Assembly: GCA_900318375.1 (NCBI GenBank)
Contig: ONKG01000029.1
Span: 1 to 37,900 of the forward strand
DNA length: 37,900 nucleotides
Origin: an uncultured Lachnospiraceae bacterium
GTDB lineage: Bacteria; Bacillota; Clostridia; Lachnospirales; Lachnospiraceae
Direction: 5' to 3'
This document shows, one piece after another, positions 420-18,148 of this stretch (positions are counted from its first letter, which is position 1; every line of letters begins with the position of its first letter). A program made the translations under genes and the position numbers. The notes under the pieces are model-generated. The model did no database searches. It was not told the DNA's origin and saw only the letters and a list, made by a program, of their open reading frames with translations.

Positions 420-435
420 TGTATAATTGTATACA
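420..435. promoter_or_regulatory. Shared 16-bp palindromic operator upstream of amt
   Basis: TGTATAATTGTATACA is a dyad with TGTATA/TATACA half-sites and a 4-bp centre. The identical 16-mer occurs at 6302-6317 and 9337-9352, in each case 6-7 bp upstream of a -35 box. The constant position and sequence argue for one DNA-binding regulator acting on amt, glnN and gltB. Placement upstream of -35 fits an activator, but a repressor is not excluded. Confidence 0.8.
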
Positions 436-442
436 ATAACGT

Positions 443-470
443 TTGACTTTCTATATAAACCGTGTATAAT
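443..470 (+). promoter_or_regulatory. amt promoter
   Basis: TTGACT (443-448) and TATAAT (465-470) are separated by 16 bp, with CGTG directly before the -10. The glnN and gltB promoters have the same spacing and the same CGTGTATAATA core. Predicted transcription start is near 477, so the RNA begins only a few bases before the conserved 14-mer AAAGCAAAGGCGCT. Confidence 0.85.
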
Positions 471-480
471 AACAGACATA

Positions 481-530
481 AAAGCAAAGGCGCTGAGGAA
501 TCAATTTCCTGCAGCGCTTTTTCTTTTTTA
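481..530 (+). terminator. amt leader terminator/attenuator hairpin with conserved 14-mer
   Basis: AAAGCAAAGGCGCT (481-494) starts the leader. GCGCTG/CAGCGC and AGGAA/TTCCT form the stem, with a TCAAT loop and one bulged G, followed by a T-rich tract (518-529). The structure ends about 50 nt after the predicted start and about 435 nt before amt. The 14-mer is identical at the glnN and gltB leaders, while the rest of each stem differs in sequence but keeps pairing. Confidence 0.8.
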
Positions 531-531
531 T

Positions 532-751
532 CGCAGGGCTGCCGTAAGGTATCTTTCGCCTGAGGCGAACGGCAGCCCGCGGAAGGGCAGAGGGCGCATA
601 TGAACTGCATAGCAGTTCATATTGCCGTTTTTACCCTCTTAATATACGGCCCGCGAAAGGAATTTTCCGCCTGACGGCGGACGCGGGCCGGTCGGGGCAG
701 AGGGCGCATATAAACTGCATCACAGTTCATTGCCGCCTCCACCCTTTTAAG
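532..751 (+). ncRNA. Tandem structured element in the amt leader (two copies)
   Basis: Copies at about 532-641 and 642-751 share the same two-hairpin plan. Hairpin 1 has a GC-rich outer stem (GGGCTGCCG/CGGCAGCCC in copy 1; GGCCCGCG/CGCGGGCC in copy 2), a one-sided bulge (AAGGTATCT or AAAGGAATT) and an inner stem capped by TGA. Hairpin 2 starts GGGCAGAGGGCGCATAT, has an AACTG/CAGTT stem, and ends in a pyrimidine stretch with CCCT pairing back to AGGG. Stem bases change in both strands between copies while loops stay fixed, so RNA or DNA structure is conserved. The tandem arrangement inside a leader resembles a two-aptamer riboswitch, but no known class is recognised. Confidence 0.5.
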
Positions 752-810
752 ACAAGAATCGGTCCGCAGCAGAAAGCCGGCTTGCCCGGATCGGGATTCT
801 TCGGACAAGG

Positions 811-848
811 GAGTCCGGACTCGAGATGAGTCCGGGCTGTTTTGTTTT
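811..848 (+). terminator. Second terminator-like hairpin before amt
   Basis: AGTCCGGACTC pairs with GAGTCCGGGCT (one G-U pair) around GAGAT, then TGTTTTGTTTT follows. It sits about 120 nt upstream of the amt start and directly downstream of the tandem structured element, so it could act as that element's expression platform. Confidence 0.55.
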
Positions 849-964
849 CAGGGGGGGATTTTCGAAGGTTGTGTACGCATCATCAATTGGGTGTATACAC
901 AGACGATATTTTATTTCATTGGCGGCCGCTCTGGCGGGCGGCATGGTCGGAAAGTGAGAGAAAA

Positions 965-2740
965 ATGGAATTCAATGTATCTACCGTCACATGGGTGCTG
1001 ATCGCTACAGCACTGATCTACTTCATGCAGGCCGGTTTTGCCCTCTGCGAAGCCGGGCTGACGAGAGCAAAAAACACAGGCAACATCCTGATGAAGAACA
1101 TGATGGATTTCTGTATCGGGACTCCCTGTTTCTGGCTGGTTGGTTTCGGCCTGATGTTCGGCAGCACAGCTCCGCTCATCGGAAGACTGGATCCCATGAT
1201 CCGAGGCCTCTACGGTGCGGAAAATACAGTCGTGCCGCAGGCCATGCCCCTCTGGTGTTTTGTAATCTTCCAGACGGTATTCTGCGCGACAGCAGCAACG
1301 ATCGTGTCCGGCTCTATGGCAGAGCGAACCAATTTTAAGGCATACTGCCTGTACTCCGCGGCGATCTCGCTTCTGGTCTACCCGATCGGCGGACACTGGG
1401 CATGGGGCGGTGGCTGGCTGTCCGGTCTGGGCTTTCACGATTTTGCAGGCAGCGCAGTCGTTCACAACGTTGGCGGCGCAATCGCATGCCTGGGTGCCTG
1501 GATGCTTGGTCCCCGTATCGGCAAATATGACCGTGAGGGAAAAGCGCGTGCCATTCCCGGCCACAACATGTTGGCAGTTGCTCTGGGTGTCTTCATCCTG
1601 TGGTTCTGCTGGTTCGGATTCAACGGCGGATCAACAGCATCTATGGCGGACGGCGCGGACGCCTTTCACGCATCCCTGGCCTTTATGAATACCAACCTTG
1701 CAGCGGCGGTCGCCACCGTCGTGGCCATGTTCTTCACCTGGCTGCGCTACGGAAAACCGGATGTCTCCATGACGCTCAATGCGGCGCTGGCCGGTCTGGT
1801 CGCCATCACAGCCGGCTGTGACTGCGTGACCCCCTTCGGAGCTTTTGTCATCGGCCTCGTTGCAGGAGTTCTTGTTGTTTTGTCTGTTGAGTTTTTTGAC
1901 AATATCGCAAAGATCGATGATCCGGTCGGCGCGGTCTCCGTCCATATGGTGAACGGAATCTGGGGCACACTGGCTGTCGGCATCTTCTCCACCGGAGAAG
2001 ATGATGTGATGAAGGGTCTGTTCTACGGCGGCGGTGGCAGGCTTCTGGGCGTTCAGGCGGTTGGAGTAGCTGCCATCGATGCATATGTCCTTGTCGTCAT
2101 GTTTATCATATTTAAGCTGATCGATCGCTTTATCGGCCTGCGCGTACCTGCTGCAGTTGAAATCGACGGCCTGGACCAGCATGAGCACGGTCTTACCAGC
2201 GCTTATTCCGGATTTGCAATCAGCGATGTCACCAACATGCTGATGGATGTCAATGAAAATACGGATCTGGGTGAGGGCGACTATGAAAAGGCGACTCCTG
2301 AACAGATCCGGGCGGCAGTCAAAGTCCAGGGAGACACATCAAATAGCACGGCACCCGGTGTGGCAGCCGGCATGCTCCCGGACACAGGCATGTATCGTCT
2401 CTCCATCATCTGCAGGCTCAACAAGTTTGATGAGCTCAAGCGGGGCCTCAATGAGATCGGTGTGACCGGCATGACCATGACCCAGGTCATGGGCTGCGGC
2501 ATTCAGAGAGGCTCCACGGAACGATACAGGGGCGCCGTGGTCGACTCCACCCTTCTCCCCAAGGTAAAAGTGGAAGTCGTTGTCGCGAAGATTTCTGTAG
2601 AGAAGGTTATCGAAGCGGCACGCCGCGTCCTGTATACCGGCCATATCGGCGACGGCAAGATCTTCGTCTACAACGTGCTTCACGTCGTCAAGGTCCGCAC
2701 CGGAGAAGAGGATTTCGCGGCTCTCCAGGATGTGGAGTGA
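965..2740 (+). CDS. amt: Ammonium transporter with C-terminal P-II domain
   Basis: This 591-residue membrane protein conducts ammonium/ammonia into the cell. The N-terminal about 420 residues are a complete Amt/MEP channel: about 11 hydrophobic segments, the early ALCEAGLTRAKN segment, and the pore histidines in VVHNVGGA and SVHMVNG. From about residue 476 a P-II (GlnB/GlnK-like) domain follows, with QRGSTERYRG (T-loop including the tyrosine that GlnB proteins can have modified) and LLPKVKVEVVV, then IGDGKIFVYNV. In most bacteria GlnK is a separate protein that plugs AmtB; here channel and sensor are fused. The ATG at 965 is chosen because the Amt fold begins there and GGAAAGTGAGAG lies upstream; an in-frame extension to 842 would run into the leader. 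It is expressed from the shared nitrogen promoter at 443. Confidence 0.95.
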   Translation: MEFNVSTVTWVLIATALIYFMQAGFALCEAGLTRAKNTGNILMKNMMDFCIGTPCFWLVGFGLMFGSTAPLIGRLDPMIRGLYGAENTVVPQAMPLWCFVIFQTVFCATAATIVSGSMAERTNFKAYCLYSAAISLLVYPIGGHWAWGGGWLSGLGFHDFAGSAVVHNVGGAIACLGAWMLGPRIGKYDREGKARAIPGHNMLAVALGVFILWFCWFGFNGGSTASMADGADAFHASLAFMNTNLAAAVATVVAMFFTWLRYGKPDVSMTLNAALAGLVAITAGCDCVTPFGAFVIGLVAGVLVVLSVEFFDNIAKIDDPVGAVSVHMVNGIWGTLAVGIFSTGEDDVMKGLFYGGGGRLLGVQAVGVAAIDAYVLVVMFIIFKLIDRFIGLRVPAAVEIDGLDQHEHGLTSAYSGFAISDVTNMLMDVNENTDLGEGDYEKATPEQIRAAVKVQGDTSNSTAPGVAAGMLPDTGMYRLSIICRLNKFDELKRGLNEIGVTGMTMTQVMGCGIQRGSTERYRGAVVDSTLLPKVKVEVVVAKISVEKVIEAARRVLYTGHIGDGKIFVYNVLHVVKVRTGEEDFAALQDVE

Positions 2741-2782
2741 GCAGCAAAGTATCCGATTCTGTCAGCGAGGCGTTTAAATACG

Positions 2783-3062
2783 GGTTTGTCGCGTCCTTAG
2801 GAAGTCGCCTTCAAGTTATACCTCCTGTGTCGGTCAGCTTTTTTCGCAGAGTTGTACTAAGGCTCGCTTATGCTCAGGGCAGGCCGGGCCAAACTCGCCT
2901 CCCGTGTTGAAGACACGGTAGACTCAGACAGGTGGCCCTAAAACGCCCGGCCGTGAGGGCCGTGCGTTTTACCTGTCCTTCCCTATAAGCTTCGCCAAGT
3001 ACAACTGAGTGCTCAAAAAAATTCCCTCCCCAGGAGGTATAACTCGAAGGCTCCAATTTCCT
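2783..3062 (+). ncRNA. Large structured repeat, copy A (ncRNA or palindromic mobile element)
   Basis: It fills the space after amt. Outer arms at 2807-2827 and 3031-3051 pair over 21 nt with one mismatch. Nested inside are GTTGTACT/AGTACAAC (2851-2858 with 2998-3005), GGC/GCC (2861-2863 with 2994-2996), GGGCAGG/CCTGTCC (2877-2883 with 2972-2978), GGGCCA/TGGCCC (2886-2891 with 2933-2938), a CCGTGT/ACACGG hairpin and an AAAACGC/GCGTTTT hairpin. Copy B (8626-8895) has the same arm-to-arm length of 245 nt with compensatory changes in these stems. No protein gene is credible in it. Confidence 0.75.
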
Positions 3063-3238
3063 GCCGGGCTGTGGGATGGAGATATTCCACGGGTGCCATC
3101 ATACAGGCAGAAGTTTATATGCTTAACAAAAAGTCCAAACTGTCGGAAAATCTTGTATCTTTTACAAAAGAGGCGAGTTTGGAAAATCTAAGCTACTCTC
3201 TCTACATTGATCGACGGAGCGACAATCAGGGTCGAGGA

Positions 3239-3467
3239 CTGCACCTCTCTGGCGAGTGAATAGTTCGGAGTCATAGATGTACTTGCCGGAAAAAGGGCAG
3301 AGGGAAGGTAAAACGCCCAGCCCTCATGGCTGGGCGTTTTAGCGCATCGCATGTCTGAGCAGACCGGGCTTTCAGCACGGGATGCGAGTTAAAGCGGCCC
3401 TCACGATGCCCTTTTTCCGGCTTAGTACATCTTGATGACGAACTCCTAAACGAGCAGAGAGGTGCAG
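3239..3467 (-). ncRNA. Large structured repeat, copy C (reverse orientation, diverged)
   Basis: Read on the minus strand it has the same order of parts as copies A and B: an outer stem (GCACCTCTCTG/CAGAGAGGTGC), a GTACT/AGTAC stem, the segment AACTCGC.TCCCGTG.TGAA, CAGAC, then CTAAAACGCCC with a TGAGGG loop and a GCGTTTTACC return arm. Its GCCGGAAAAAGGGCA/TGCCCTTTTTCCGGC stem (+ strand 3284-3298 and 3407-3421) replaces the equivalent stem of A and B with different bases. It is shorter and diverged but clearly the same family. Between A and C (3063-3238) I see no gene. Confidence 0.6.
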
Positions 3468-3526
3468 CCGCAGACCCGTCCTTCACCTCTACAAACCCAT
3501 ATTTTGATCAAGAAAGGAGGCACTAC

Positions 3527-6151
3527 ATGGCAGCATTCGAGCGAATCCAATCCGGCATTCCGGCGATGGATGCCGCGTTGGACAATATCCGTCTGGGGGA
3601 CAATGTCGTCTGGCAGGTGTCTTCTTTGGACGAATTCCGTCTTTTTGCAAAACCTTTTGCAGAACAGGCGATTCGAGACGGGCGAAATCTCCTCTATATA
3701 CGATTTGCGGAGCACGATCCCATCCTACCGGAGATGGAGGGGCTGCGGATAGTGCATGTCCCTCTTTCTCACCGCTTTGAGACCTTCACGGTGGAGATTC
3801 ACAATATCATCGAAAAAGAGGGATATGACGCATTTTATGTCTTTGACTGTCTCTCCGAACTGGAGGCTGCCTGGGCGACAGACCTTCTTATGGGAGATTT
3901 TTTCCATCTGACCTGTCCTTTTCTGTTCATACTGGATACTGTAGCCTATTTTCCGGTGCTTCGCGGCCGGCATTCCAATGACGCTGTCAGCAAAATCCGG
4001 AACACGACACAGCTCTTTCTGGATGTCTTCACGGAGGAAAAAGAAGAAAACCAGATCCGGAGCATGTATGTGCGCCCGCTGAAGGTATGGGAGAGGTCTT
4101 CGGAGACCATGTTCCGTCCGCATCTCTACGACCTGCGCGCAGGTACCTTTCTGCCTGAGACGGAAAGTGTGCATCGCAGTCATTTATATCGGCAGATGAA
4201 CCTGACAGGGGCGAGCATCAATCAGAGCATGGACAGCTGGGAACGGTTTTTTCAGAGTGCCAGAATCAAGTATGAGAGCGGACTGGACATTACGCAGGAA
4301 TGCAGCCGGATGTGCAATATCATGCTGACGCGGGATGAGCGCCTGCGCGTCCTGATCAAGGAGCATTTCAAACCGGAAGACTATTTTGAAGTGCATGACC
4401 GCATGGTCGGCACCGGGATGATCGGCGGCAAGGCGACCGGCATGCTGCTGGCCAGGAAGCTGACGGAAAACCTTCGCGCGGACATCTATGAGCGGATCGA
4501 GCCGCATGATTCTTTCTACATCGGCTCAGATGTTTTCTACACCTATATTGTTGACAACGGACTCTGGGACCTGCGTGTGCGCCAGCGCACGGAGGAGGGC
4601 TATTTTACACTTGCTGAGGAAGTGGAGGGACGTCTGCTGCAGGGAGTGTTTTCAAACGCGATGGAAGAGGAATTCCGGCGTCTTCTGGAATACTATGGTG
4701 ATGATCCGGTCATCGTGCGCTCCAGTTCCATTCTGGAGGATGGTTTCGGAAATGCTTTTGCGGGAAAATATGAATCCGTGTTCTGCGCCGGGATCGGGTC
4801 GCCGGAGGAAAGGCTGGAGACATTTGAACAGGCAATCCGGACAGTCTATGCAAGTACCATGGGTCTGTCGGCTCTCGACTACCGCAAGCGCAGGGGTCTG
4901 GACAAGAGGGATGAGCAGATGGCGATCCTGGTCCAGCGAGTCTCCGGCTCCCGATATAAGGATTTCTACATGCCCTGTGCGGCCGGCGTGGGCTATTCTG
5001 TCAGTCCCTACCGCTTCAGCCCGGAGCATCCGAGCGAGGGTATGCTGCGCCTGGTCATGGGCCTGGGGACAGCTGCGGTGGACAGGCGTACCGGCTCTTA
5101 TCCGCGGATGGTGATGATGGAGGATCCCACCAAAGTGACATTGACATCATCCTCGGACAAGCATCAGTTTTCCCAGCGCCTGGTTGATGCTGTGAGTTTC
5201 GCGTCCGGAGAGGTGGAAGGGCTGGATCCGGACTTTGTCCGCAGGGAGATACCGGCCTATATGACACGCCTTCTTTTGTCCCACGACTGGGACGCGGAGC
5301 GGATTTTTACGGATCGCGGCGAGGACCGGCAGATTTTCTATGTCTCCTGCGAAGGTCTGGTTAAAAACAGACAGCTCATGGACGACATGCGGGGAATACT
5401 GAAGCTCCTGAAGGAAGCCTATGTTTATCCTGTGGATATTGAGTACACGATCAACGTCGCTCCCTCGGGGGATTATGTGATCGACCTGCTCCAGTGCCGG
5501 CCCCTTCAGCAGTCGAAAGAGGGAGATGCGGTCATCGTGCCTCAGGTGTCTCCGGAGCGGATCCTTTTGGAGACAAAGGGCGTTTCCATGGGATTTTCCC
5601 GGACCTTCCCCGTAGATCTGGTCATCTACATCGACCCGATCCTTTATTACGAGATGCCTTACAGGGACAAATTCCGGGTGAGGGATCTTTTGTCCGCCAT
5701 CAACTGGAAACTCCGGGGGCAGGGCAAGCGGATGCTGCTCCTTACGCCTGGCCGGATCTGCACATCTTCGGCAGAGCTGGGAGTGCCTTCCGCCTTCGCT
5801 GATATCAGTGAATTTGACATGATCGCGGAGATTTCTGAGACCAGGGCGGGATATGTCCCTGAGCTGAGCTATGGCAGCCATATTTTCCAGGATCTGGTGG
5901 AGGCAGAAATACTGTACACAGCAGTTTTTGAGACGCAGACCACTCTGCATTTCACACCTTCCCTGCTGGAACCCTATATTGCTCTTCTGTCCGACTATGC
6001 CGGGAAGGCGGATGGACTGGAGGGAATCCTGCAGGTGTACGACACGGGACAAAGCGGCCTGACACTGTACTACGACATGTCTCAGGAGCACTTGCAGATA
6101 TCTTTCATATCTGAAAAAGGGGTGATGGAGGAAGTATTTGTGCAGGATTGA
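3527..6151 (+). CDS. PEP/pyruvate-binding (PPDK N-terminal) domain protein with degenerate RecA/KaiC-like N-terminus
   Basis: This 874-residue protein is probably cytoplasmic. Residues 1 to about 200 resemble the KaiC/RadA fold opening (FERIQSGIPAMDAALDNIRLG), but where the Walker A GxxGxGKT should be it reads WQVSSLDEF, so ATP binding there looks lost. Residues about 290-660 carry the ATP-grasp-like nucleotide-binding domain of pyruvate phosphate dikinase and PEP synthase: GTGMIGGKATGM near 296, VIVRSSSILEDGFGNAFAGKYESVF-type core near 395, and DIEYTI...DLLQCRPLQ near 636. The swivelling phosphohistidine domain and the C-terminal PEP/pyruvate barrel are absent; about 210 residues of unrecognised sequence end the protein. 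It therefore cannot be a complete PPDK or PEP synthase, and its role is unknown. A textbook AAGAAAGGAGG site precedes the ATG. It sits between amt and glnN with no shared promoter element of its own. Confidence 0.85.
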   Translation: MAAFERIQSGIPAMDAALDNIRLGDNVVWQVSSLDEFRLFAKPFAEQAIRDGRNLLYIRFAEHDPILPEMEGLRIVHVPLSHRFETFTVEIHNIIEKEGYDAFYVFDCLSELEAAWATDLLMGDFFHLTCPFLFILDTVAYFPVLRGRHSNDAVSKIRNTTQLFLDVFTEEKEENQIRSMYVRPLKVWERSSETMFRPHLYDLRAGTFLPETESVHRSHLYRQMNLTGASINQSMDSWERFFQSARIKYESGLDITQECSRMCNIMLTRDERLRVLIKEHFKPEDYFEVHDRMVGTGMIGGKATGMLLARKLTENLRADIYERIEPHDSFYIGSDVFYTYIVDNGLWDLRVRQRTEEGYFTLAEEVEGRLLQGVFSNAMEEEFRRLLEYYGDDPVIVRSSSILEDGFGNAFAGKYESVFCAGIGSPEERLETFEQAIRTVYASTMGLSALDYRKRRGLDKRDEQMAILVQRVSGSRYKDFYMPCAAGVGYSVSPYRFSPEHPSEGMLRLVMGLGTAAVDRRTGSYPRMVMMEDPTKVTLTSSSDKHQFSQRLVDAVSFASGEVEGLDPDFVRREIPAYMTRLLLSHDWDAERIFTDRGEDRQIFYVSCEGLVKNRQLMDDMRGILKLLKEAYVYPVDIEYTINVAPSGDYVIDLLQCRPLQQSKEGDAVIVPQVSPERILLETKGVSMGFSRTFPVDLVIYIDPILYYEMPYRDKFRVRDLLSAINWKLRGQGKRMLLLTPGRICTSSAELGVPSAFADISEFDMIAEISETRAGYVPELSYGSHIFQDLVEAEILYTAVFETQTTLHFTPSLLEPYIALLSDYAGKADGLEGILQVYDTGQSGLTLYYDMSQEHLQISFISEKGVMEEVFVQD

Positions 6152-6301
6152 ACAGGGGTGTGCTGGATTGCCCAGGATAATCAAGATTTTCAAGAAGAAT
6201 TAGCGTTTCGAAAAAACTAAGCGATAGAGACGATTTGGAAGCGAAAGGTCACCACTGCAGGCGGGAGAAGACAGCGACCGAAGGGCACACGGAATTAAAT
6301 T

Positions 6302-6317
6302 TGTATAATTGTATACA
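6302..6317. promoter_or_regulatory. Shared 16-bp palindromic operator upstream of glnN
   Basis: Same 16-mer as at 420-435, here ending 6 bp before the -35 box. Flanking bases differ from the other two sites, so the 16-mer itself is what is conserved. Confidence 0.8.
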
Positions 6318-6323
6318 AAAGTG

Positions 6324-6351
6324 TTGACAGACCTATTTTCACGTGTATAAT
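6324..6351 (+). promoter_or_regulatory. glnN promoter
   Basis: TTGACA (6324-6329), 16-bp spacer, TATAAT (6346-6351) preceded by CGTG. The distance from the -10 to the leader 14-mer is 11 bases, exactly as at amt. The 150 bases between the previous stop (6151) and the operator hold no gene that I can support. Confidence 0.88.
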
Positions 6352-6361
6352 AAGAGTTCAT

Positions 6362-6420
6362 AAAGCAAAGGCGCTTGAAGAAACGGTATGAGCCCGTCTC
6401 TTCAGGCGCCTTTTCTTTTA
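6362..6420 (+). terminator. glnN leader terminator/attenuator hairpin with conserved 14-mer
   Basis: AAAGCAAAGGCGCT (6362-6375) begins the leader. GGCGCTTGAAGA pairs with TCTTCAGGCGCC (one G-U), with an inner ACGG/CCGT stem, then TTTTCTTTT. The hairpin ends about 90 nt before glnN. Readthrough must be allowed for glnN to be expressed from this promoter. Confidence 0.8.
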
Positions 6421-6507
6421 CCCGGAAACAGCATACGGATTTGTTCAGGTGTAAGTCACTTCAAGACAAATACATACAGATCCAGGTATGATCAGGAGGA
6501 AAATGAA

Positions 6508-8619
6508 ATGATGGAAAGCAATGCAAAAGTTCCCGAAATCTATGCCGGCATGGTCTTTAACGACAAGGTCATGCGGGAGCGTCTGCCCAAGGACGTCTAT
6601 AAGGCAGTCCGCAAGACCAGCAAGAACGGTACCCACCTGGAACTGGATGTGGCAAATACAGTTGCCGCAGCAATGAAGGAATGGGCAATTGAGAAGGGCG
6701 CTACCCACTTCACACACTGGTTCCAGCCTATGACAGGACTGACGGCAGAGAAGCATGATGGTTTCATTTCTCCGACCTCCGACGGAAGTGTCATTATGGA
6801 GTTCTCCGGCAAGGAACTGGTCAAGGGCGAACCGGATGCCTCAAGTTTCCCTTCGGGCGGCCTGCGCGCCACCTTCGAGGCACGAGGTTACACAGCCTGG
6901 GATCCCAGCTCCCCCGCCTTCATCAAGGACGGATCCCTCTACATTCCGACAGCCTTCTGCTCCTACGGCGGTGAGGCTCTGGATAAAAAGACTCCCCTCC
7001 TGCGTTCTATGGAAGCCCTGTCCGCGGCTGCCGTCAAGGTCCTGCGCCTTCTGGGCAACACGGATGTGACTCATGTAGATACCACAGTTGGTTCCGAGCA
7101 GGAATATTTCCTGATCGACAAGGAACTCTACAAAAAGAGAAAGGACCTGCTGCTGACCGGCCGCACCCTCATGGGAGCGCCTGCTCCCAAGGGACAGGAA
7201 ATGGAAGATCACTATTTCGGCGTCCTTAAACCCAAGGTGTCCGAGTATATGCATGCTCTGGACCGCGAGCTGTGGGAACTGGGTGTTCCGACCAAGACAA
7301 AACACAATGAAGTTGCTCCTTCCCAGCATGAACTGGCTCCGGTCTTTGAGACCGCCAATATCGCCGTCGATCACAACCAGCTGACTATGGAGGTCATGAA
7401 GAAAGTCGCCGACCGCTTCGGCTACGCCTGCCTCCTGCACGAGAAGCCTTTTGAGGGAATCAACGGATCCGGCAAGCACAACAACTGGTCCATCAGCACG
7501 GATAGCGGAGAGAACCTCCTCAATCCCGGAAAAACACCTGCGGAGAACCAGCAGTTCCTCGTATTCCTCCTGGCTGTGATCGCGGCTGTGGACGAGTATC
7601 AGGAGGTCCTGCGTGTCTCCGTCGCCACCGCAGGCAATGACCATCGTCTGGGCGGAAACGAAGCCCCGCCTGCCATCATTTCTATTTTCGTCGGTGACGA
7701 GCTGGCACAGGTCCTGGAGTCGATTGAGAATGACACCGTTTTCGCCGGCGGCGGCAAGACCCAGATGGGCATGGGCGCCCACGTTCTTCCGCATATTATG
7801 AGGGATACGACGGACCGCAACAGGACCTCTCCCTTTGCTTTCACCGGCAACAAGTTCGAGTTCCGTATGCCGGGCAGCTCCCTTTCCGTGGCAAACCCCA
7901 ACATCGTCCTCAACACGGCTGTTGCCGAGACCCTGACACAGATTTACGATGAGCTCAAAGATGTCTCTACTGGTCAGATGGACGATGCCGTCCACGCCCT
8001 TCTCAAGAAGCTGCTGGCAGAGCACAAACGCATCCTGTTTAACGGCAACGGATATACGGACGAGTGGGTCGAAGAGGCACACAGAAGAGGACTTGCGGAC
8101 CTCAAATCTCTGCCCGATGCAATGCCTTCCTTTATTGCTGACAAGAGCATCGAGCTCTTTACAAAGCATGGTATTTTCACCAGGGAAGAACTTGAATCCC
8201 GCTACGAGATTCTGCTGGAAAACTACGCCAAGACCATTCACATCGAGTCTCTGACCCTGCAGGAAATGGTGCGCAAAGACTTCACTGCCGGCCTTGTCCA
8301 GTATATGAAAGATGTCACTAACGAAGCTCTGAAAAAAAGAGACCTTCTGCCTGACAGCCGCTGCAGCTACGAAGGCCGCATTCTGCAGAAACTGGATGAG
8401 ACCAGTGAGCAGATTCTGGATGCCCTCGATGCTCTCGAGGCGGACACAAAGAAGGCGGAGGCCATCGACGACATTCTGGCCCAGGCTGCCTTCTACCAGG
8501 AGACCATCCTGGCTGAGATGGAGACACTGCGGAGCTGGACTGATCAGGCAGAAGCAATCATCCCCGATCAGTATCTGCCTTATCCCACCTACGAGCAGAT
8601 GCTGTTCTCCCTGAGATAA
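6508..8619 (+). CDS. glnN: Glutamine synthetase, type III
   Basis: This cytoplasmic enzyme joins ammonia to glutamate with ATP to make glutamine. At 703 residues it has the length of type III enzymes and is far longer than type I. Diagnostic stretches include GSEQEYFLIDKELY (metal-binding glutamates), HNEVAPSQHELAPVFE, NGSGKHNNWSI and NDHRLGGNEAPPAI, the last being a hallmark of the GSIII family. The start at 6508 follows AGGAGGA (6494-6500) with 7-bp spacing and gives MMESNAKVPEIYAG; an upstream in-frame ATG at 6388 lies inside the leader hairpin and is unlikely. Expression is from the operator/promoter/attenuator at 6302-6420. A second, type I, enzyme is encoded at 18149. Confidence 0.96.
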   Translation: MMESNAKVPEIYAGMVFNDKVMRERLPKDVYKAVRKTSKNGTHLELDVANTVAAAMKEWAIEKGATHFTHWFQPMTGLTAEKHDGFISPTSDGSVIMEFSGKELVKGEPDASSFPSGGLRATFEARGYTAWDPSSPAFIKDGSLYIPTAFCSYGGEALDKKTPLLRSMEALSAAAVKVLRLLGNTDVTHVDTTVGSEQEYFLIDKELYKKRKDLLLTGRTLMGAPAPKGQEMEDHYFGVLKPKVSEYMHALDRELWELGVPTKTKHNEVAPSQHELAPVFETANIAVDHNQLTMEVMKKVADRFGYACLLHEKPFEGINGSGKHNNWSISTDSGENLLNPGKTPAENQQFLVFLLAVIAAVDEYQEVLRVSVATAGNDHRLGGNEAPPAIISIFVGDELAQVLESIENDTVFAGGGKTQMGMGAHVLPHIMRDTTDRNRTSPFAFTGNKFEFRMPGSSLSVANPNIVLNTAVAETLTQIYDELKDVSTGQMDDAVHALLKKLLAEHKRILFNGNGYTDEWVEEAHRRGLADLKSLPDAMPSFIADKSIELFTKHGIFTREELESRYEILLENYAKTIHIESLTLQEMVRKDFTAGLVQYMKDVTNEALKKRDLLPDSRCSYEGRILQKLDETSEQILDALDALEADTKKAEAIDDILAQAAFYQETILAEMETLRSWTDQAEAIIPDQYLPYPTYEQMLFSLR

Positions 8620-8625
8620 ATACAT

Positions 8626-8895
8626 GTTTGCCGCGCCCTCAGGAAGTCGCCTTCAAGGTATACCTCCTGCGTCGATCAGATTTTTTCGCAGAGTTGTACT
8701 AAATCTCGCTTATGCTCAAAACGGATCGGACCAAACTCGTCTCCCGTGTTGAAGACACGGGAGACTCAGACAGGTGGTCCTAAAATGCCCGGCCATGAGG
8801 GCTGTGCATTTTATCCGTTCTTCCCTATAAGCTTCGATAAGTACAACTGACTGCTCAAAAAATTCACTCCGCCAGGAGGTATAACTTGAAGGCTC
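8626..8895 (+). ncRNA. Large structured repeat, copy B
   Basis: It starts within 10 bases of the glnN stop and lies before that gene's terminator, so it should be in the glnN 3' untranslated region. Arms at 8649-8669 and 8873-8893 are 245 nt from edge to edge, as in copy A. Compared with A, pairs change together: ATC/GAT (8703-8705 with 8836-8838) for GGC/GCC; AACGGAT/ATCCGTT (8720-8726 with 8813-8819) for the GGGCAGG stem; GGACCA/TGGTCC for GGGCCA/TGGCCC; AAAATGC/GCATTTT for AAAACGC/GCGTTTT. Unpaired segments such as GCTTATGCTCA and CTTCCCTATAAGCTTCG are identical. Confidence 0.75.
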
Positions 8896-8934
8896 ATCCC
8901 TCACCCTGTCCCTCCTCGACAAACTCGTATTTGA

Positions 8935-8973
8935 CTGCGCAAGAGCGAATTAACTCCTGCGCAGCCTTTTTTT
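8935..8973 (+). terminator. Intrinsic terminator downstream of glnN and copy B
   Basis: CTGCGCA pairs with TGCGCAG, extended by GAG/CTC, around a short A-rich loop, followed by CC and seven T (8967-8973). Confidence 0.75.
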
Positions 8974-9089
8974 GCGCCCTGCAGTGAGCAGACGTTGTTC
9001 GTGAACCTCCGTGAACCTTGCCTTCGTGATCCCTTGGACTTATAGAACTTCCGTGAACCTTGCTTCCGCCAATCTGTCGGGCTTTGTCT

Positions 9090-9313
9090 TTCTGTTATAT
9101 CCATATTCTGATAAAGACGACCATACTCTCGCGTCTGGTTCCGCTGGTCGTATTCTGTTCTGTCGCCGTGATGATAAAGGACATGGGCAGAGCGTCGCTG
9201 GTTTCTATCATCGGATATGCCGGGGTTTATCTGATCGCAATTGTCTGCATGATGCTCATATATGGTCTCATGGTTTTGCTTTTGGGCCGTTTAAACCCGA
9301 TCACCTTCTTTAA
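9090..9313 (+). pseudogene. Fragment of a dicarboxylate/amino-acid:cation symporter
   Basis: One frame encodes KTTILSRLVPLVVFCSVAVMI, then IGYAGVYLIAIVCMMLIYG and LLLGRLNPITFFKK. This matches the pattern of an internal segment of DAACS-family (GltP/DctA-like) symporters: a basic loop, two membrane helices and the conserved GRLNPxTFFKK. Only about 70 residues remain. There is no credible start, the upstream part is missing, and the similarity stops at a REP-like sequence (9316-9334) just before the gltB operator. Family assignment is from recall of the conserved motif. I infer a deletion or insertion that removed the rest of a glutamate/aspartate-type transporter gene. Confidence 0.6.
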
Positions 9314-9315
9314 AA

Positions 9316-9334
9316 AGAACCGTCCCCTGTCTCC
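9316..9334. repeat. REP-like element, copy 1 (GAACCGTCCCCTGTCTCC)
   Basis: AGAACCGTCCCCTGTCTCC recurs at 37568-37586, and as its reverse complement at 20139-20157; a diverged form lies at 24252-24288. The same core is familiar as a dispersed extragenic palindrome in many bacteria. Here it marks the break point of the symporter remnant and abuts the gltB operator. Confidence 0.65.
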
Positions 9335-9336
9335 CG

Positions 9337-9352
9337 TGTATAATTGTATACA
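9337..9352. promoter_or_regulatory. Shared 16-bp palindromic operator upstream of gltB
   Basis: Third identical copy of the 16-mer found at 420-435 and 6302-6317, ending 7 bp before the -35 box. Confidence 0.8.
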
Positions 9353-9359
9353 TTTTATA

Positions 9360-9387
9360 TTGACAATGCCTGTCACACGTGTATAAT
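9360..9387 (+). promoter_or_regulatory. gltB promoter
   Basis: TTGACA (9360-9365), 16-bp spacer, TATAAT (9382-9387) preceded by CGTG. Unlike amt and glnN, the leader 14-mer is 90 bases downstream of the -10, so this leader has about 85 extra bases. These include a 7-bp hairpin with a six-base loop (TGAAAGA/TCTTTCA, 9419-9438) and a CAGAATATTCTG palindrome (9441-9452). Confidence 0.87.
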
Positions 9388-9476
9388 AGCATTTATTAAT
9401 AGAACTTTTTTCGAGCAGTGAAAGAGAACATTCTTTCAATCAGAATATTCTGTCAATAATGAAATAGAACAGTGTA

Positions 9477-9532
9477 AAAGCAAAGGCGCTTAATGGATGA
9501 AGGAAACTTCATCTATTGGGCGCCTTTTTTTT
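9477..9532 (+). terminator. gltB leader terminator/attenuator hairpin with conserved 14-mer
   Basis: AAAGCAAAGGCGCT (9477-9490) leads into a stem of about 20 bp that is continuous if G-U pairs are allowed, capped by a GAAA tetraloop (near 9503), followed by eight T. This is the strongest of the three leader terminators. It ends 100 nt before gltB. Confidence 0.82.
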
Positions 9533-9631
9533 ATTCATTACGGATCCCGAAAATTCAGCGGCAGTTCCCGGGCAGCCGTGAGGCTGCGTCAGTCAGACCG
9601 GCGGAGCTGTACCGGCATAGGAGAAAAGAAG

Positions 9632-12600
9632 ATGTACCCTTTGATGGAACATGATGCCTGCGGCATCGGTACGATCGTGAATATTGACGGGCGGCAGGAC
9701 CGCCGGGTGGTGGATGACGCCCTGCATATCGTGGAGAAGCTGGAGCACCGGGCCGGCAAGGATGCCACCGGAGAAGTGGGCGACGGCGTGGGAATTCTCA
9801 CGCAGATTCCGCACGGTTTTTTCAGCAAGGCAGCGAAGGCGGCTGGAATTGAACTTCAAGTTTCAGGAGAAGCGGGACGGTATTCTCAGGAAAACATGGC
9901 CCGGGGCTGTGCAGGTTGTCAGGCAGGCGACTATGGAATCGGCATGTTCTTCCTGCCCCAGGATAACTTAAAGAGAACCTTCGCCATCCGCATGTTTGAG
10001 GTGATCGCGCAGAAGGAGGGCCTGGCGATTCTGGGCTGGCGCGATGTGCCGGTGCGGGAACAGGTTTTGGGAAAGGCAGCAGTCGACTGCATGCCCTGCA
10101 TCCGCCAGTGCTTCCTGGCGCGGCCAGCGGATGTGGAGAGGGGCATAGCTTTTGACAGGAAACTCTATGTGATCCGCAGGGAGTTTGAACAGTCGTCCGA
10201 GGATACTTACATATGCTCCCTCTCGTCGCGGACGATTGTGTACAAAGGAATGTTCCTGGTCGGTCAGCTGCGGCGCTTCTACGATGACCTGCAGTCTCCG
10301 GACTATGTGTCCGCAATCGCCATTGTGCACTCACGTTTTTCCACAAACACGACCCCCTCCTGGCACAGAGCCCATCCCTACCGCATGATCGCCCACAACG
10401 GTGAGATCAATACCATCCGCGGCAACATCGACAGGATGCTGGCCCGCGAGGAGACCATGACCAGTCCCGTCATGCAGGAGGACATCGACAAGATCTTCCC
10501 TGTCGTAGACCGCAGCGGCTCTGACTCTGCCATGCTGGACAACACGCTGGAATTCCTCTACATGAACGGTGTGCCCCTGGCCCTGGCTATGATGGTCATC
10601 ATCCCCGAGCCCTGGAAGCACAATACTTTTATGAGCGAGGATAAGCGCGATTTTTATCACTACTACGCCACCATGATGGAACCCTGGGACGGCCCGGCGG
10701 CAATCCTCTTTACAGACGGCGAGGTCCTGGGCGCGACCCTGGACCGGAACGGCCTCAGGCCTTCACGCTATTACATCACGGATGACAACCGGCTCATCCT
10801 GGCATCCGAAGTCGGCGTCCTGGACATTCCGGCATCCCATATAGTGAAAAAAGCCCGCCTGGAGCCCGGGCGGATCCTTCTGGTCGACACAAAACAGCAG
10901 AGGATCATTTCTGACGAGGAGTGCAAGTCCCATTACGCACTTCGAAAACCCTATGGAGAGTGGCTGGACAGGAATCTGCTGCATCTGGACCAGCTTCCCA
11001 TCCCCAATCACAAGATTCCGGTCCACACGCAGGAGATCCGCGACCGCCTTTACAAAGTCTTCGGCTACACCTACGAGGATGTCAAGGACCAGATTCTCCC
11101 CATGGCGGAAAACGCTGTTGAGCCCACTCTTTCCATGGGACATGACGCCCCTCTGGCGGTGCTCTCCGAGGCACACCAGCTTCTGTTTAACTATTTCAAG
11201 CAGCTGTTTGCCCAGGTGACCAATCCGCCCATCGACTCCCTGCGGGAAAAAATCGTGACCGACACGACCGTCTATATAGGTTCGGACGGTGATCTTTTAC
11301 AGGAAAAAAGCGGCAACTGCACCGTCCTGGAGGTCAACCATCCCATCCTGACCGGCGTGGATCTTCTGAAGATCCGCCATCTGGATCAGCCCGGCTTCAA
11401 GGCAAGGGAGATTTCCCTGCTCTACTATAAAAATACATCACTGGCAAAAGCGCTGGACCAGCTCAACATTACTGTGGACCGCGCAGCGGGAGAGGGCTGT
11501 AATATCATCATCCTGACCGACCGCGGCGTGGATGAAAACCATATGCCCATTCCTTCCCTGCTGGCAGTCTCCAGTGTCGAGCAGCATCTGGTGCAGACAA
11601 AACGGCGCACTGCCGTCTCCCTGATCCTGGAGAGCGGCGAGCCCCGGGACGTGCACCAGATGGCCACCCTTCTGGGCTTCGGCGCCCGGGCAATCTGCCC
11701 CTATCTGGCACATGAGTGCATAGGAGAACTGATTGATCTGGGAATCCTGGACAAGGATTACTACACAGCGGTCGAGGACTACAATGCAGCCCTGCTGGGA
11801 GGTGTCGTCAAGATCGCGGCCAAGATGGGAATCTCCACCATTCAGTCCTACCAGTCCGCCCGTATTTTCGAGGCGATCGGCCTGGGAGAAGATGTGATCA
11901 GTAAATACTTCACCGGTACGGTCAGCCGTGTCGGCGGAATCGGAATTGCGGAGATTGAGGAGGGTGTGACCTTCCGCCACGACCACGCCTTTGATCCTTT
12001 GGGGTTAGGTGTCGATACGACACTGGACTCTGTCGGCCTCCATTCCCTTCGCCGAGGAGAGGGCAGTGAGGATCACCTCTACAGTCCCGAGACCATCATC
12101 GCACTCCAGCAGGCTGTGCGAACCGGTTCCTATGAGCGCTTTGAGGAATATACACAGCTGGTGGATGACTCCAGACATCCCCATACACTGCGGGGGCTTC
12201 TGGAATTTGTTCCGGCAGGTCCCCCGGTTCCCCTGGAAGAGGTGGAATCTGTGGAGAGCATAGTACGCCGCTTCAAGACGGGTGCCATGAGTTTCGGTTC
12301 TCTTTCCAGAGAAGCCCACGAGACCCTGGCGCGGGCTATGAATTCGATCGGCGCAAAGTCCAATACCGGCGAGGGCGGCGAAGCACCGGAGCGCTTCGGC
12401 ACAGATGCCAACAGCCGCATCAAGCAGGTGGCTTCGGGACGCTTCGGCGTGACCAGTGCCTATCTGTGCAGCGCCGACGAGATCCAGATCAAAATGGCCC
12501 AGGGAGCCAAGCCCGGCGAGGGCGGTCATCTGCCGGGCAAAAAAGTCTATCCATGGGTGGCAAAGACCCGGTTCTCCACGCCCGGTGTTTCCCTGATCTC

Positions 12601-14335
12601 CCCGCCGCCCCATCACGATATTTATTCCATTGAGGACCTGGCCCAGCTGATCTATGACCTGAAAAACGCAAACCGCGACGCCAGGATCAATGTCAAGCTG
12701 GTCTCTGAGGCAGGGGTCGGGACCATCGCCTCCGGCGTCGCCAAGGCCGGCGCCCAGGTCATCCTGATCTCCGGCTATGACGGGGGAACCGGGGCGGCAC
12801 CCGGAAGCTCCATTCACAACGCGGGTCTCCCCTGGGAACTGGGGCTTTCCGAAGCCCACCGCTGCCTTGTCGAAAACGGACTTCGCAGCCGTGTCGTCCT
12901 GGAGACGGACGGCAAACTTATGAGCGGGCGAGATGTCGCCATAGCGGCACTTCTGGGGGCAGAGGAGTACGGTTTCGCGACAGCCCCCCTGGTGACCATG
13001 GGCTGCATGATGATGCGTGTCTGTTCCAAGGATACCTGTCCGGTCGGCATCGCGACCCAGAATGAAAAGCTGCGCTGCCGCTTCAAGGGAAAACCGGAAC
13101 ATGTTGTCTGCTTTATGACCTTTATCGCCAGACAGCTGCGGCAGATCATGGCAGACCTCGGCTTTACCAGGCTGGCGGATATGATCGGACGGACCGACTG
13201 CCTGCGCGTGCGCGAGAATCTGATCACGGACCGCGCCTTCAAGGTAGACCTGAAGCAGATTCTGGGCGATACCCCCTTCCCTGTATCTCCGGACAAGGAC
13301 TTGTACGACTTCCGTCTTGAGACCACCCCGGACCTGTCTGTTCTGATTCCGGCATTTGCCGAGGGACTGGCAAAGGGCGCCATGTCCGGCAGGCTTCCGG
13401 AAGCAATTTTGGAAAAACGGGATAAATCAGGTGCTGAAAAGAACAGTGGAAGAGATGCTTTTGCTTCCTACCTGAAAGAAAAAAGGACCGCTCTGGGCAG
13501 GCTTGCCTGTGAAAAAGAAGGTACCCGGGTCATCGGCCGCTGCGAAACCTCCCTGCAGGTTTCCTCCACCGACCGCGCCTTCGGGGCCATTCTGGGTTCC
13601 GAGGTCACCAAAAACTTCGGAAATACATTGGCGGACGATACCTTTGTTGTCAATGCCTTCGGCGGAGGCGGTCAGTCCTTCGGCGCATTTCTGCCCAAGG
13701 GTGTCACGATCCGTCTGACCGGAGACGCCAACGACGGTTTCGGAAAGGGACTTTCCGGCGGCAAACTCGTTGTTGTTCCGGACAAGGACAGCCCCTTTGA
13801 AGCAGACAAAAATATCATTGTCGGCAACGTCGCCCTTTTCGGCGCGACTTCCGGCAAGGCTTATTTCAACGGCATTGCGGGAGAGCGCTTCGGCGTGCGC
13901 AACTCCGGTGCCACCCTGGTCGCGGAGGGATGCGGAGATCACGGTCTGGAATATATGACAGGAGGCCGCGCTGTCATCCTCGGCGGTACAGGCAAAAACT
14001 TTGCGGCCGGCATGAGCGGCGGCATCGCCTATGTCCTGGATACGGACCACAGCCTCTACCGCAGGATGAACAAGGACATGACCATGCTGCAGGAACTTAC
14101 AGAGGACTATGATATTGCGGAGCTGCGGGGGATCCTGGAAGATTATGTGCATGAGACATCGTCGTCACTGGGACAAAAGATTCTTTCCGAATACACTGCT
14201 TATCTGCCCTATTTTAAGAAAATTGTCCCCAGGGATTATCAGCGGATGCTGACTGCCATCAGCAGACACGAAGAGCAGGGCATGCCGCATGACAAGGCCG
14301 TACTGGAGGCATTCCGGGAGATTTCCGCGGGATAA
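9632..14335 (+). CDS. gltB: Glutamate synthase, large subunit
   Basis: This 1567-residue enzyme transfers the glutamine amide nitrogen to 2-oxoglutarate, giving two glutamates, with electrons from GltD. The N-terminal glutaminase starts MYPLMEHDACGIGTIV, so Cys10 is the likely nucleophile exposed by removal of a short propeptide. The central and FMN/2-oxoglutarate domains follow (NTGEGGE, SGYDGGTGAAP). Cys1125, Cys1131 and Cys1136 have the spacing of the 3Fe-4S cluster ligands. The C-terminal GxGxG beta-helix domain is present (GGGGQSFGAF, GDANDGFGKGLSGG). The ATG at 9632 follows AGGAGAAAAGAAG; extending upstream to 9497 would translate the attenuator. gltD follows 132 bases later without a visible terminator, so gltBD is probably one operon. 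Confidence 0.97.
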   Translation: MYPLMEHDACGIGTIVNIDGRQDRRVVDDALHIVEKLEHRAGKDATGEVGDGVGILTQIPHGFFSKAAKAAGIELQVSGEAGRYSQENMARGCAGCQAGDYGIGMFFLPQDNLKRTFAIRMFEVIAQKEGLAILGWRDVPVREQVLGKAAVDCMPCIRQCFLARPADVERGIAFDRKLYVIRREFEQSSEDTYICSLSSRTIVYKGMFLVGQLRRFYDDLQSPDYVSAIAIVHSRFSTNTTPSWHRAHPYRMIAHNGEINTIRGNIDRMLAREETMTSPVMQEDIDKIFPVVDRSGSDSAMLDNTLEFLYMNGVPLALAMMVIIPEPWKHNTFMSEDKRDFYHYYATMMEPWDGPAAILFTDGEVLGATLDRNGLRPSRYYITDDNRLILASEVGVLDIPASHIVKKARLEPGRILLVDTKQQRIISDEECKSHYALRKPYGEWLDRNLLHLDQLPIPNHKIPVHTQEIRDRLYKVFGYTYEDVKDQILPMAENAVEPTLSMGHDAPLAVLSEAHQLLFNYFKQLFAQVTNPPIDSLREKIVTDTTVYIGSDGDLLQEKSGNCTVLEVNHPILTGVDLLKIRHLDQPGFKAREISLLYYKNTSLAKALDQLNITVDRAAGEGCNIIILTDRGVDENHMPIPSLLAVSSVEQHLVQTKRRTAVSLILESGEPRDVHQMATLLGFGARAICPYLAHECIGELIDLGILDKDYYTAVEDYNAALLGGVVKIAAKMGISTIQSYQSARIFEAIGLGEDVISKYFTGTVSRVGGIGIAEIEEGVTFRHDHAFDPLGLGVDTTLDSVGLHSLRRGEGSEDHLYSPETIIALQQAVRTGSYERFEEYTQLVDDSRHPHTLRGLLEFVPAGPPVPLEEVESVESIVRRFKTGAMSFGSLSREAHETLARAMNSIGAKSNTGEGGEAPERFGTDANSRIKQVASGRFGVTSAYLCSADEIQIKMAQGAKPGEGGHLPGKKVYPWVAKTRFSTPGVSLISPPPHHDIYSIEDLAQLIYDLKNANRDARINVKLVSEAGVGTIASGVAKAGAQVILISGYDGGTGAAPGSSIHNAGLPWELGLSEAHRCLVENGLRSRVVLETDGKLMSGRDVAIAALLGAEEYGFATAPLVTMGCMMMRVCSKDTCPVGIATQNEKLRCRFKGKPEHVVCFMTFIARQLRQIMADLGFTRLADMIGRTDCLRVRENLITDRAFKVDLKQILGDTPFPVSPDKDLYDFRLETTPDLSVLIPAFAEGLAKGAMSGRLPEAILEKRDKSGAEKNSGRDAFASYLKEKRTALGRLACEKEGTRVIGRCETSLQVSSTDRAFGAILGSEVTKNFGNTLADDTFVVNAFGGGGQSFGAFLPKGVTIRLTGDANDGFGKGLSGGKLVVVPDKDSPFEADKNIIVGNVALFGATSGKAYFNGIAGERFGVRNSGATLVAEGCGDHGLEYMTGGRAVILGGTGKNFAAGMSGGIAYVLDTDHSLYRRMNKDMTMLQELTEDYDIAELRGILEDYVHETSSSLGQKILSEYTAYLPYFKKIVPRDYQRMLTAISRHEEQGMPHDKAVLEAFREISAG

Positions 14336-14467: not shown

Positions 14468-16192
<1,725 letters not shown>

Positions 16193-16317: not shown

Positions 16318-18126
<1,809 letters not shown>

Positions 18127-18148
18127 AACGTTCAGAAAGGAAATAGCA

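Follow-up and report, generated by a model that had tools for sequence, protein, structure and literature searches.

What governs the transcription of three nitrogen-assimilation genes that share one upstream design in an uncultured Lachnospiraceae bacterium, and which proteins read the signals in front of them? The stretch analysed, called the window below, consists of nucleotides 1–37,900 of contig ONKG01000029.1 (assembly GCA_900318375.1, 3.93 Mb, 82% complete). It contains amt, glnN and gltB, all on the forward strand, as are their promoters and leaders and the genes that follow gltB in its cluster. A first-pass annotation had described one operator, one promoter design and one attenuated leader common to the three genes, and had assigned the leader to no named riboswitch and the operator to no protein. 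Our analysis makes it likely that two layers govern the ammonium-assimilation genes, the first being antitermination by an ANTAR protein on a single RNA hexaloop and the second a DNA operator for a GntR-type regulator. This reading is carried by conservation, by covariation of the leader stem, by the co-occurrence of leader and protein and by the positions of the operator sites. In this form the small regulon that had been proposed, with a DNA operator and promoter plus an attenuated leader, is supported by the sequences compared.

Operator, promoter and leader in the window

The 16-mer TGTATAATTGTATACA is present in exact copies at 420–435 before amt, 6302–6317 before glnN and 9337–9352 before gltB, just as first described. 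It combines a GntR-type core, TTGTATACAA, with a TTGTAT half-site. When up to three mismatches are allowed, the window contains four matches against 0.08 expected, a number reached by none of 100 shuffles. Each copy is followed by a promoter with a 16-bp spacer and a TATAAT −10 box: at amt (443–470) the −35 box is TTGACT (443–448) and the −10 box lies at 465–470, at glnN (6324–6351) they are TTGACA (6324–6329) and 6346–6351, and at gltB (9360–9387) TTGACA (9360–9365) and 9382–9387. The amt and glnN promoters are conserved in relatives. The gap between 16-mer and −35 box is 7, 6 and 7 bp for amt, glnN and gltB, respectively, in agreement with the spacing reported earlier.

The 14-mer AAAGCAAAGGCGCT follows, with exact copies starting at 481, 6362 and 9477. 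Its start lies 11 nt past the final base of the −10 box in amt and glnN, as had been claimed, and 90 nt past it in gltB. The amt and glnN modules are therefore near copies of one design, while gltB combines the same operator and promoter with a longer leader. Matches to the 14-mer with up to three mismatches number six in the window, which is not unusual (22 of 100 shuffles reach six); weight is therefore given to the three exact copies alone. All three leaders fold into strong intrinsic terminators, at 480–527 for amt (−24.3 kcal/mol, z −4.8), 6362–6418 for glnN (−32.4 kcal/mol, z −7.3) and 9474–9534 for gltB (−36.5 kcal/mol, z −9.7).

Elsewhere in the source genome the exact 16-mer occurs once more, before asnB, making four places in all. 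The exact 14-mer occurs six times: three in the window, one before asnB and two on contigs C164 and C166, which are parts of reading frames and were rejected as leaders. The carB gene is preceded by a 14-mer copy with one mismatch and without the operator.

The leader as a probable ANTAR target

Targets of ANTAR proteins have been described as short hairpins with a hexanucleotide loop, bearing A at position 1 and G at position 4 (A1/G4), that overlap a terminator (Ramesh et al. 2012, PMC3369931). The 14-mer folds in this manner, as the mini-hairpin AGC-[AAAGGC]-GCU with an A1/G4 hexaloop, and the hairpin overlaps the 5′ arm of the intrinsic terminator. In amt, the hairpin (P2, 483–494) consists of AGC (483–485), the loop AAAGGC (486–491) and GCU (492–494), and it is mutually exclusive with the terminator. 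The glnN and gltB hairpins (6363–6376 and 9478–9491) each have one more base pair, AAGC/GCUU, around the loops at 6367–6372 and 9482–9487. In all three window leaders, no other A1/G4 hexaloop carried on at least 3 bp lies between operator and terminator. The leader is thus probably recognisable as the target hairpin of an ANTAR protein. The 14-mer had been placed at the base of a terminator hairpin; the terminators are indeed strong, but the 14-mer also forms an alternative hairpin with a covarying stem. At the edge of contig C78, two tandem 14-mer variants retain A1 and G4, with the stem altered on both sides (AAAC/GTTT and GAC/GTT).

The attenuated leaders precede nitrogen genes, and a small-molecule riboswitch or another leader that senses a metabolite directly could be placed there as well; leader peptides were not searched for. 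The Rfam covariance models gave no match in the window at the gathering score, and the 11 sub-threshold matches listed all belong to unrelated families, on which ground the riboswitch reading was rejected. A leader of about 50 nt with one hairpin of 3–5 bp is, in our judgement, small for a ligand pocket. Together with the co-occurrence of leader and ANTAR protein described below, this makes direct metabolite sensing extremely improbable. The earlier statement that the leader is not a named riboswitch stands as far as Rfam is concerned; it is superseded in that the leader resembles an ANTAR target and a probable protein for it is encoded in the window.

Leaders in related genomes

Relatives were sampled as 62 genomes of the genus, 295 of the order and 391 of the class. 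A covariance model of the leader, R1, was built from seven leaders of the genome itself and matches 51 of the 62 genus genomes at E 0.01. Applied to 50 chosen sources, R1 yielded 105 matches, from which 26 lower-scoring opposite-strand rows and one duplicate (L100, at the same place as L141) were dropped, leaving 78 leaders. Of these, 64 are distinct over 30 nt, and the 57 that are distinct over the first 24 nt form alignment A3. The leader search pattern was not used for covariation, because a stem of 3 and the core motif were built into it as requirements. A second model, R2, with the terminator as its sole structure, was applied to order and class with a threshold of 1e-5 and found leaders in 41 of 295 and 44 of 391 genomes; 56 loci were fetched, at most one per genome and search, 48 of them distinct. 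A covariance model of the kind first suggested thus finds leaders in genus, order and class. It had been allowed that related genomes might lack these elements; instead, the same module of operator, promoter and leader stands before their orthologous genes.

In the genus, the four pairs of the P2 stem are formed in 93.0% of the cells of A3, and their covariation score is 0.332, compared with 0.202 for shuffled alignments (none of 500 reaches the observed value) and at most 0.149 when the stem is slid along the 57 leaders. In the 48 order and class leaders, pairs 2, 3 and 4 are formed in 48, 48 and 42 sequences, against shuffled maxima of 47, 44 and 34. For the terminator stem, the covariation score is 0.506 versus 0.243. 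The loop has A1 and G4 in all 64 distinct genus leaders and in all 48 order and class leaders.

The genes downstream of leaders found by the pattern are amt, glnN, gltB, asnB, carB and pyrG and, further off and identified by eye, a murT/gatD pair; some leaders are near contig ends and have no downstream gene. For the order and class leaders found with R2, the 1.5 kb downstream were examined for a set of nitrogen genes: one set of 29 loci has such a gene (amt, a P-II gene, glnN, gltB or asnB) in 27 cases, and a second set of 27 loci has one (glnN, amt and one weak asnB match) in 24.

These data also bear on whether the leaders might be constitutive early terminators or start-site insulators, the 14-mer being merely a conserved promoter-proximal element. 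The terminator is far more stable than the alternative hairpin, as that explanation would have it. Yet covariation links the two strands of the small hairpin, the 5′ one of which lies outside the terminator core, and the leaders are specific to certain genes (amt, glnN, gltB, asnB and carB), so that we regard it as highly improbable. Several observations do weigh against an ANTAR target. The free P2 hairpin is weak, with −2.2 to −3.1 kcal/mol equalled by 47–55 of 200 shuffles. In the genus, pairs changed on both sides and the number of pair types are no better than in shuffles (165 and 234 of 500 reach the observed values), and in the order and class leaders pairs 5 and 6 form no more often than expected by chance. 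Finally, the constancy of A1 and G4 in model matches is partly ascertainment, because the models were seeded with AAAGGC.

Some arrangements were noted in passing. Tandem single-hexaloop terminators, two before one gene, are found in L042 (53–188) and near 1430–1560 in L211, L280 and L289. In three genomes, what may be a hexaloop terminator precedes a gene pair that by eye is murT/gatD-like (L041 at 116, and, on the minus strand, L116 at 303 and L118 at 185).

The ANTAR protein and its putative partner

The gene cluster of the window has the order gltB-gltD-pyrG-glnA-ANTAR. It starts with gltB, the large subunit of glutamate synthase (9632–14335, by family scan), followed by a gltD-like reductase subunit (14468–16192), named by position and by eye, which follows gltB both here and in relatives. 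Then come pyrG, encoding CTP synthase (16414–18126, by family scan), and a glnA-like gene for a type I glutamine synthetase (18143–19363, by family scan and relatives in the PDB). The last gene (19487–20131) encodes a NitR-like protein with an ANTAR domain (PF03861, 50.9 bits against a curated cut-off of 27.3, E 1.3e-13), the probable antiterminator for the leaders. It is the only ANTAR protein detected in the genome. A phmmer search relates it to AmiR, Rv1626, EutV and NasR. Residues Tyr164 and Met172 of EutV have been reported to contact the hexaloop (PMC8934654), and by alignment and spacing they appear to match H188 and M196 of the window protein. In relatives, 28 ANTAR proteins were delimited (two further loci gave no start), and M196 is invariant in the 24 that were aligned.

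The receiver-like domain of the protein is peculiar: the phosphoacceptor aspartate of PDB entry 1s8n aligns with Ser78 and the conserved lysine with a methionine. Among the 24 homologues, the phosphoacceptor column, inspected by eye, contains asparagine in ten and aspartate in none. With a receiver-like domain that lacks the phosphoacceptor, the protein should obtain its signal through a partner and not from a kinase. In 18 of 20 neighbourhood loci picked from 202 ANTAR-containing genomes of the order, the ANTAR gene is preceded by a glnA-like gene on the same strand. The remaining two loci (L248 and L249) have no glnA-like gene upstream, and both genomes hold a second ANTAR protein outside the loci compared. 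Modelled on the pair formed by TnrA and glutamine synthetase, the adjacent GlnA-like protein would be the best candidate for the signal partner; that it acts as a sensor is a guess, since by eye the alignment indicates that the window protein retains most glutamine synthetase motifs. The six named loci encoding a relative of the ANTAR protein come from four uncultured Lachnospiraceae, one metagenome-assembled genome of the Eubacteriales and Sarcina sp. DSM 11001, in which contig NZ_FNFZ01000015.1 carries the cluster. On this basis the order and class sampled are assumed to be the ones to which Lachnospiraceae belong, the class being Clostridia.

Leader and protein tend to occur together. An ANTAR protein was found in 53 of 62 genus genomes, 51 of them above the cut-off. 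At E 1e-3, the leader is present in 42 of the 53 genomes with the protein and in one of the nine lacking it (Fisher 1.6e-4), and at 1e-4 in 36 of 53 and one of nine (p 0.002). In the order, all 41 leader-bearing genomes contain an ANTAR protein, compared with 202 of 295 overall (Fisher 4e-8). Against the coupling stand the two genus matches to ANTAR that fall below the curated cut-off, the variation of the genus result with the threshold (47 of 53 versus four of nine at E 0.01, p 0.006; 23 of 53 versus one of nine at 1e-5, p 0.066), and an ANTAR-negative genome, G072, that is 99% complete and has a leader-like match at 7e-6. Likewise, 161 of the 202 ANTAR-positive order genomes have no leader match at 1e-5. 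Because the genomes are related, the Fisher values overstate the co-occurrence.

One hexaloop or two

The ANTAR antiterminators characterised in PMC3369931 and PMC8934654 use two hexaloops, and the genome searches of Ramesh et al. employed a dual-hairpin model (PMC3369931). In the three window leaders, no second hexaloop (P1) is present at a short linker upstream, between operator and terminator. Two candidates for it were rejected. The 16-mer as an RNA hairpin (TGTAT-AATTGT-ATACA) has a loop without G at position 4 and is separated from P2 by the promoter, and the hairpin GAAAGA-GAACAU-UCUUUC of the long gltB leader has a loop that begins with G and has no G4.

A promoter was recognised for 59 of the 78 genus leaders, and in 53 of these the distance from the −10 box to the loop is 12–16 nt; for the other 19, the carB leaders among them, none was recognised. 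In the 34 of 48 order and class leaders with a promoter score of at least 10, it is 12–17 nt in 28. Where a promoter is recognised, the −10 box is thus mostly 12–17 nt before the loop, which leaves no room for another hexaloop. If transcription begins some 7 nt past the −10 box, as is usual, the stem would have only a few nucleotides in front of it. While the gltB leader of the window measures 90 nt, those of L120 and L126 are short, with 29 and 30 nt to the loop, and among the longer leaders checked, window gltB and seven others contain no second A1/G4 hexaloop. The asnB leader of genome G014 (L091) is lengthened by a stretch between operator-promoter and hexaloop.

It might be that these are canonical dual-hexaloop targets in which P1 has been overlooked and transcription starts further upstream. 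EutV was shown to contact one hexaloop at a time, but the authors hold that antitermination in vivo needs both (Walshe et al. 2022, PMC8934654), and this, like the two loops of the other characterised systems, weighs against a single-hexaloop reading. So do some of the leaders: L278, before amt in another family of the class, has near 1470–1520 an additional A1/G4 hexaloop with a perfect 5-bp stem, GATGC-AACGAG-GCATC, its promoter being located 30 nt before the second of the two loops, and the long glnN leaders L130 and L132 have a weak second hexaloop. L278 indicates that a two-loop form also exists and that it needs a longer leader; the length of the gltB leader would also suit the dual form. 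However, the window leaders have no second A1/G4 hexaloop between operator and terminator, the recognised promoters mostly leave 12–17 nt before the loop, and only nine of the 78 leaders have such a hexaloop anywhere in the 60 nt of DNA that precede the loop and include the promoter. We therefore hold an overlooked P1 to be very unlikely. The leaders seem to represent a natural single-hexaloop variant of the ANTAR target that is common in front of the class's glnN and amt genes, with starts placed from the promoter sequences. In L266 and L287, a hairpin similar to the upstream one of L278 was seen by eye, with a loop that begins with G.

The operator and a candidate GntR/FCD regulator

The 16-mer is a separate, lineage-specific DNA operator. 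As an 18-bp consensus, TTGTATNATTGTATACAA, it is present with up to three mismatches in 58 of the 78 genus leaders, the core TTGTATACAA being nearly invariant among them, and in 50 of the 58 it ends 5–8 bp before the −35 box. Among the 56 leader loci fetched from order and class, L212 alone contains a good site, and L188 a poor one. The leader is much wider in distribution than the operator, reaching order and class, which makes the two layers of control separable. Since the 16-mer contains TATAAT, a promoter within it was considered and rejected, inspection by eye having shown no suitably spaced −35 box in front of amt or glnN. We prefer to read the 16-mer as a DNA site because the same site covers the −10 box of a regulator gene, gntR, in the other orientation.

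In the source genome, a site with one mismatch on contig C67 precedes this gene, which is followed by icd; among sites with none or one mismatch, gntR is the only regulator gene adjoining a site. Its product contains a GntR (PF00392) and an FCD (PF07729) domain and falls below the cut-off of every NCBIfam family listed. Of 62 genomes, 56 contain the gene, with an identity of at least 68%. In the loci of relatives, the operator lies over the −10 box of the gntR promoter (TTGA..-N16-18-TACAAT) in 29 of 30, with L185 unmatched (an earlier scan of a narrower stretch gave 27 of 29), and all 30 fetched loci also contain icd. In front of gdhA, 27 of 30 loci have the 10-bp core with no more than one mismatch, compared with 164 of 6000 shuffles, and 24 of 30 have the 18-mer with up to three mismatches. 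The GntR/FCD regulator beside icd is thus the likely binder of the operator, a concrete candidate for the protein that the first-pass annotation could not name, and its probable and new regulon would have the nitrogen genes, icd and gdhA among its likely members.

An alternative is that the 16-mer is read by an NtcA-like protein of the Crp family or a GlnR/TnrA-like protein of the MerR family. NtcA operators have the form GTA-N8-TAC and replace the −35 box near −41.5. The 16-mer fits that motif, but here a −35 box is present and the site is near −50, a position that resembles TnrA promoters. On the other hand, the 16-mer is one base shorter than the 17-bp TnrA/GlnR consensus TGTNA-N7-TNACA, the only regulator gene adjoining the closest sites is gntR (no scan of the genome for NtcA or GlnR was made), and the operator covers the −10 box of gntR itself in nearly all loci. 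A reader of either of these families is accordingly judged unlikely. Two points count against the assignment to GntR at the nitrogen genes. Twenty of the 78 leaders have no operator, although some of these genomes, such as G016, have gntR, and the evidence for the likely activation of the nitrogen genes is one of site position. As G016 has gntR with its site and operator-free nitrogen leaders, its pattern suggests that the two layers are wired independently.

Three other sites were observed. The operator of L212 (near 1470, genome G295) is reversed and lies over the −10 box of glnN, which suggests repression, as opposed to the upstream site in the present lineage. Another inverted repeat, TTGACAA...TTGTCAA, lies over the −35 box of single-hexaloop asnB leaders in another genus (L197 and L207). 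Near 4590 in L043, an operator with one mismatch stands in front of a gene for a TAXI-type TRAP transporter, which might also be controlled by GntR.

Other features of the window

The ammonium transporter encoded by amt (965–2740, PF00909) has a P-II signalling domain (PF00543) fused at its C terminus, and glnN (6508–8619; PF12437, PF18318 and PF00120) encodes a type III glutamine synthetase. Between the two genes, nucleotides 3527–6151 encode an 874-residue protein with a phosphoenolpyruvate-synthase-like domain (PF01326) that is below all NCBIfam cut-offs; it is near other nitrogen genes at a few loci of relatives. Two intergenic copies of 279 nt, 86% alike, are located downstream of amt (2775–3053) and of glnN (8617–8895). 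The amt leader contains a pair of 36-nt repeats at 585 and 695, and just before the amt start codon (892–899) there is a palindrome, TGTATACA, that resembles the operator core.

Proposed mechanism

In the scheme proposed here, the binding events, transcription starts, signal and sign of control are predictions. With a start about 7 nt after the −10 box, the first RNA made would be a 3–5 bp hairpin with the hexaloop A-A-A-G-G-C, and the loop and 3′ strand would double as the 5′ arm of the terminator. Left alone, the RNA would refold into the terminator after about 50 nt. Under nitrogen shortage, the ANTAR protein encoded behind glnA would bind and hold the single hexaloop, so that the terminator could not form and amt, glnN, gltBD-pyrG-glnA-ANTAR, asnB and carB would be read. 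As its gene is within the gltB cluster, the protein would boost itself. The signal would be carried by a partner, for which the GlnA-like neighbour is the best candidate.

In the DNA layer of this lineage, the GntR/FCD regulator next to icd would bind TTGTATNATTGTATACAA. At amt, glnN, gltB and asnB, where the site is a few base pairs upstream of the −35 box, activation is likely; at its own promoter, with the site over the −10 box, autorepression is likely; and at gdhA, where the site is repeatedly found upstream, repression is possible.

A wider proposal, to which we give somewhat less than an even chance, is that, across the class, mRNAs for nitrogen assimilation commonly open with a single ANTAR hexaloop that antiterminates without a recruitment hairpin, so that the need for two hexaloops would not be general, that an ANTAR protein that cannot be phosphorylated reads nitrogen through the adjacent GlnA-like protein, and that one lineage has added carbon control at initiation by a GntR/FCD regulator. 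In the accepted ANTAR model one hexaloop recruits the protein and the other blocks the terminator. Leaders whose sole hexaloop is the first part transcribed would be natural counter-examples to it and very small test objects. For a major group of gut bacteria, they also supply a target through which ammonium assimilation could be controlled and a candidate for its regulator, and their motif can be searched for where a model with two hairpins would overlook it. The GntR site suggests a tie between carbon state (icd and gdhA) and nitrogen state.

Comparison with known systems

Among the openly accessible papers listed by literature searches, none appeared to treat an ANTAR or GntR nitrogen regulon of this group. 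The window leaders share with the ANTAR targets of eutP (EutV), nasF (NasR) and amiE (AmiR) an A1/G4 hexaloop hairpin that overlaps the 5′ arm of a terminator, an ANTAR protein in the genome and nitrogen genes downstream. They are ANTAR targets by hairpin, terminator and partner, but not dual-hexaloop targets: there is one hexaloop, at what would be the very 5′ end of the RNA, with neither P1 nor linker. The window protein differs from the EutV type in that its receiver-like domain lacks the phosphoacceptor.

The gene for NitR lies beside glnA in a cluster of glutamine synthetase and glutamate synthase (GS/GOGAT) genes, a position which we take to define NitR, and the window ANTAR gene is so placed. 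NitR of Clostridium saccharobutylicum has been reported to induce the GS/GOGAT genes under nitrogen limitation (PMC6316151), and like it the window protein is predicted to act on such genes. The accessible portion of PMC6316151 describes no RNA target for NitR, while here a target is proposed and traced across order and class.

The regulator of the DNA layer resembles the FadR subfamily of GntR proteins in its GntR and FCD domains and in the 10-bp palindromic core, TTGTATACAA, of its putative site. It differs from them by an 18-bp asymmetric site with an extra half-site, and by having nitrogen genes, icd and gdhA as likely targets. As in the NtcA and TnrA/GlnR regulons, assimilation genes would be controlled together, with gdhA perhaps in the opposite sense, but by a regulator of another family, at another site and with another spacing.

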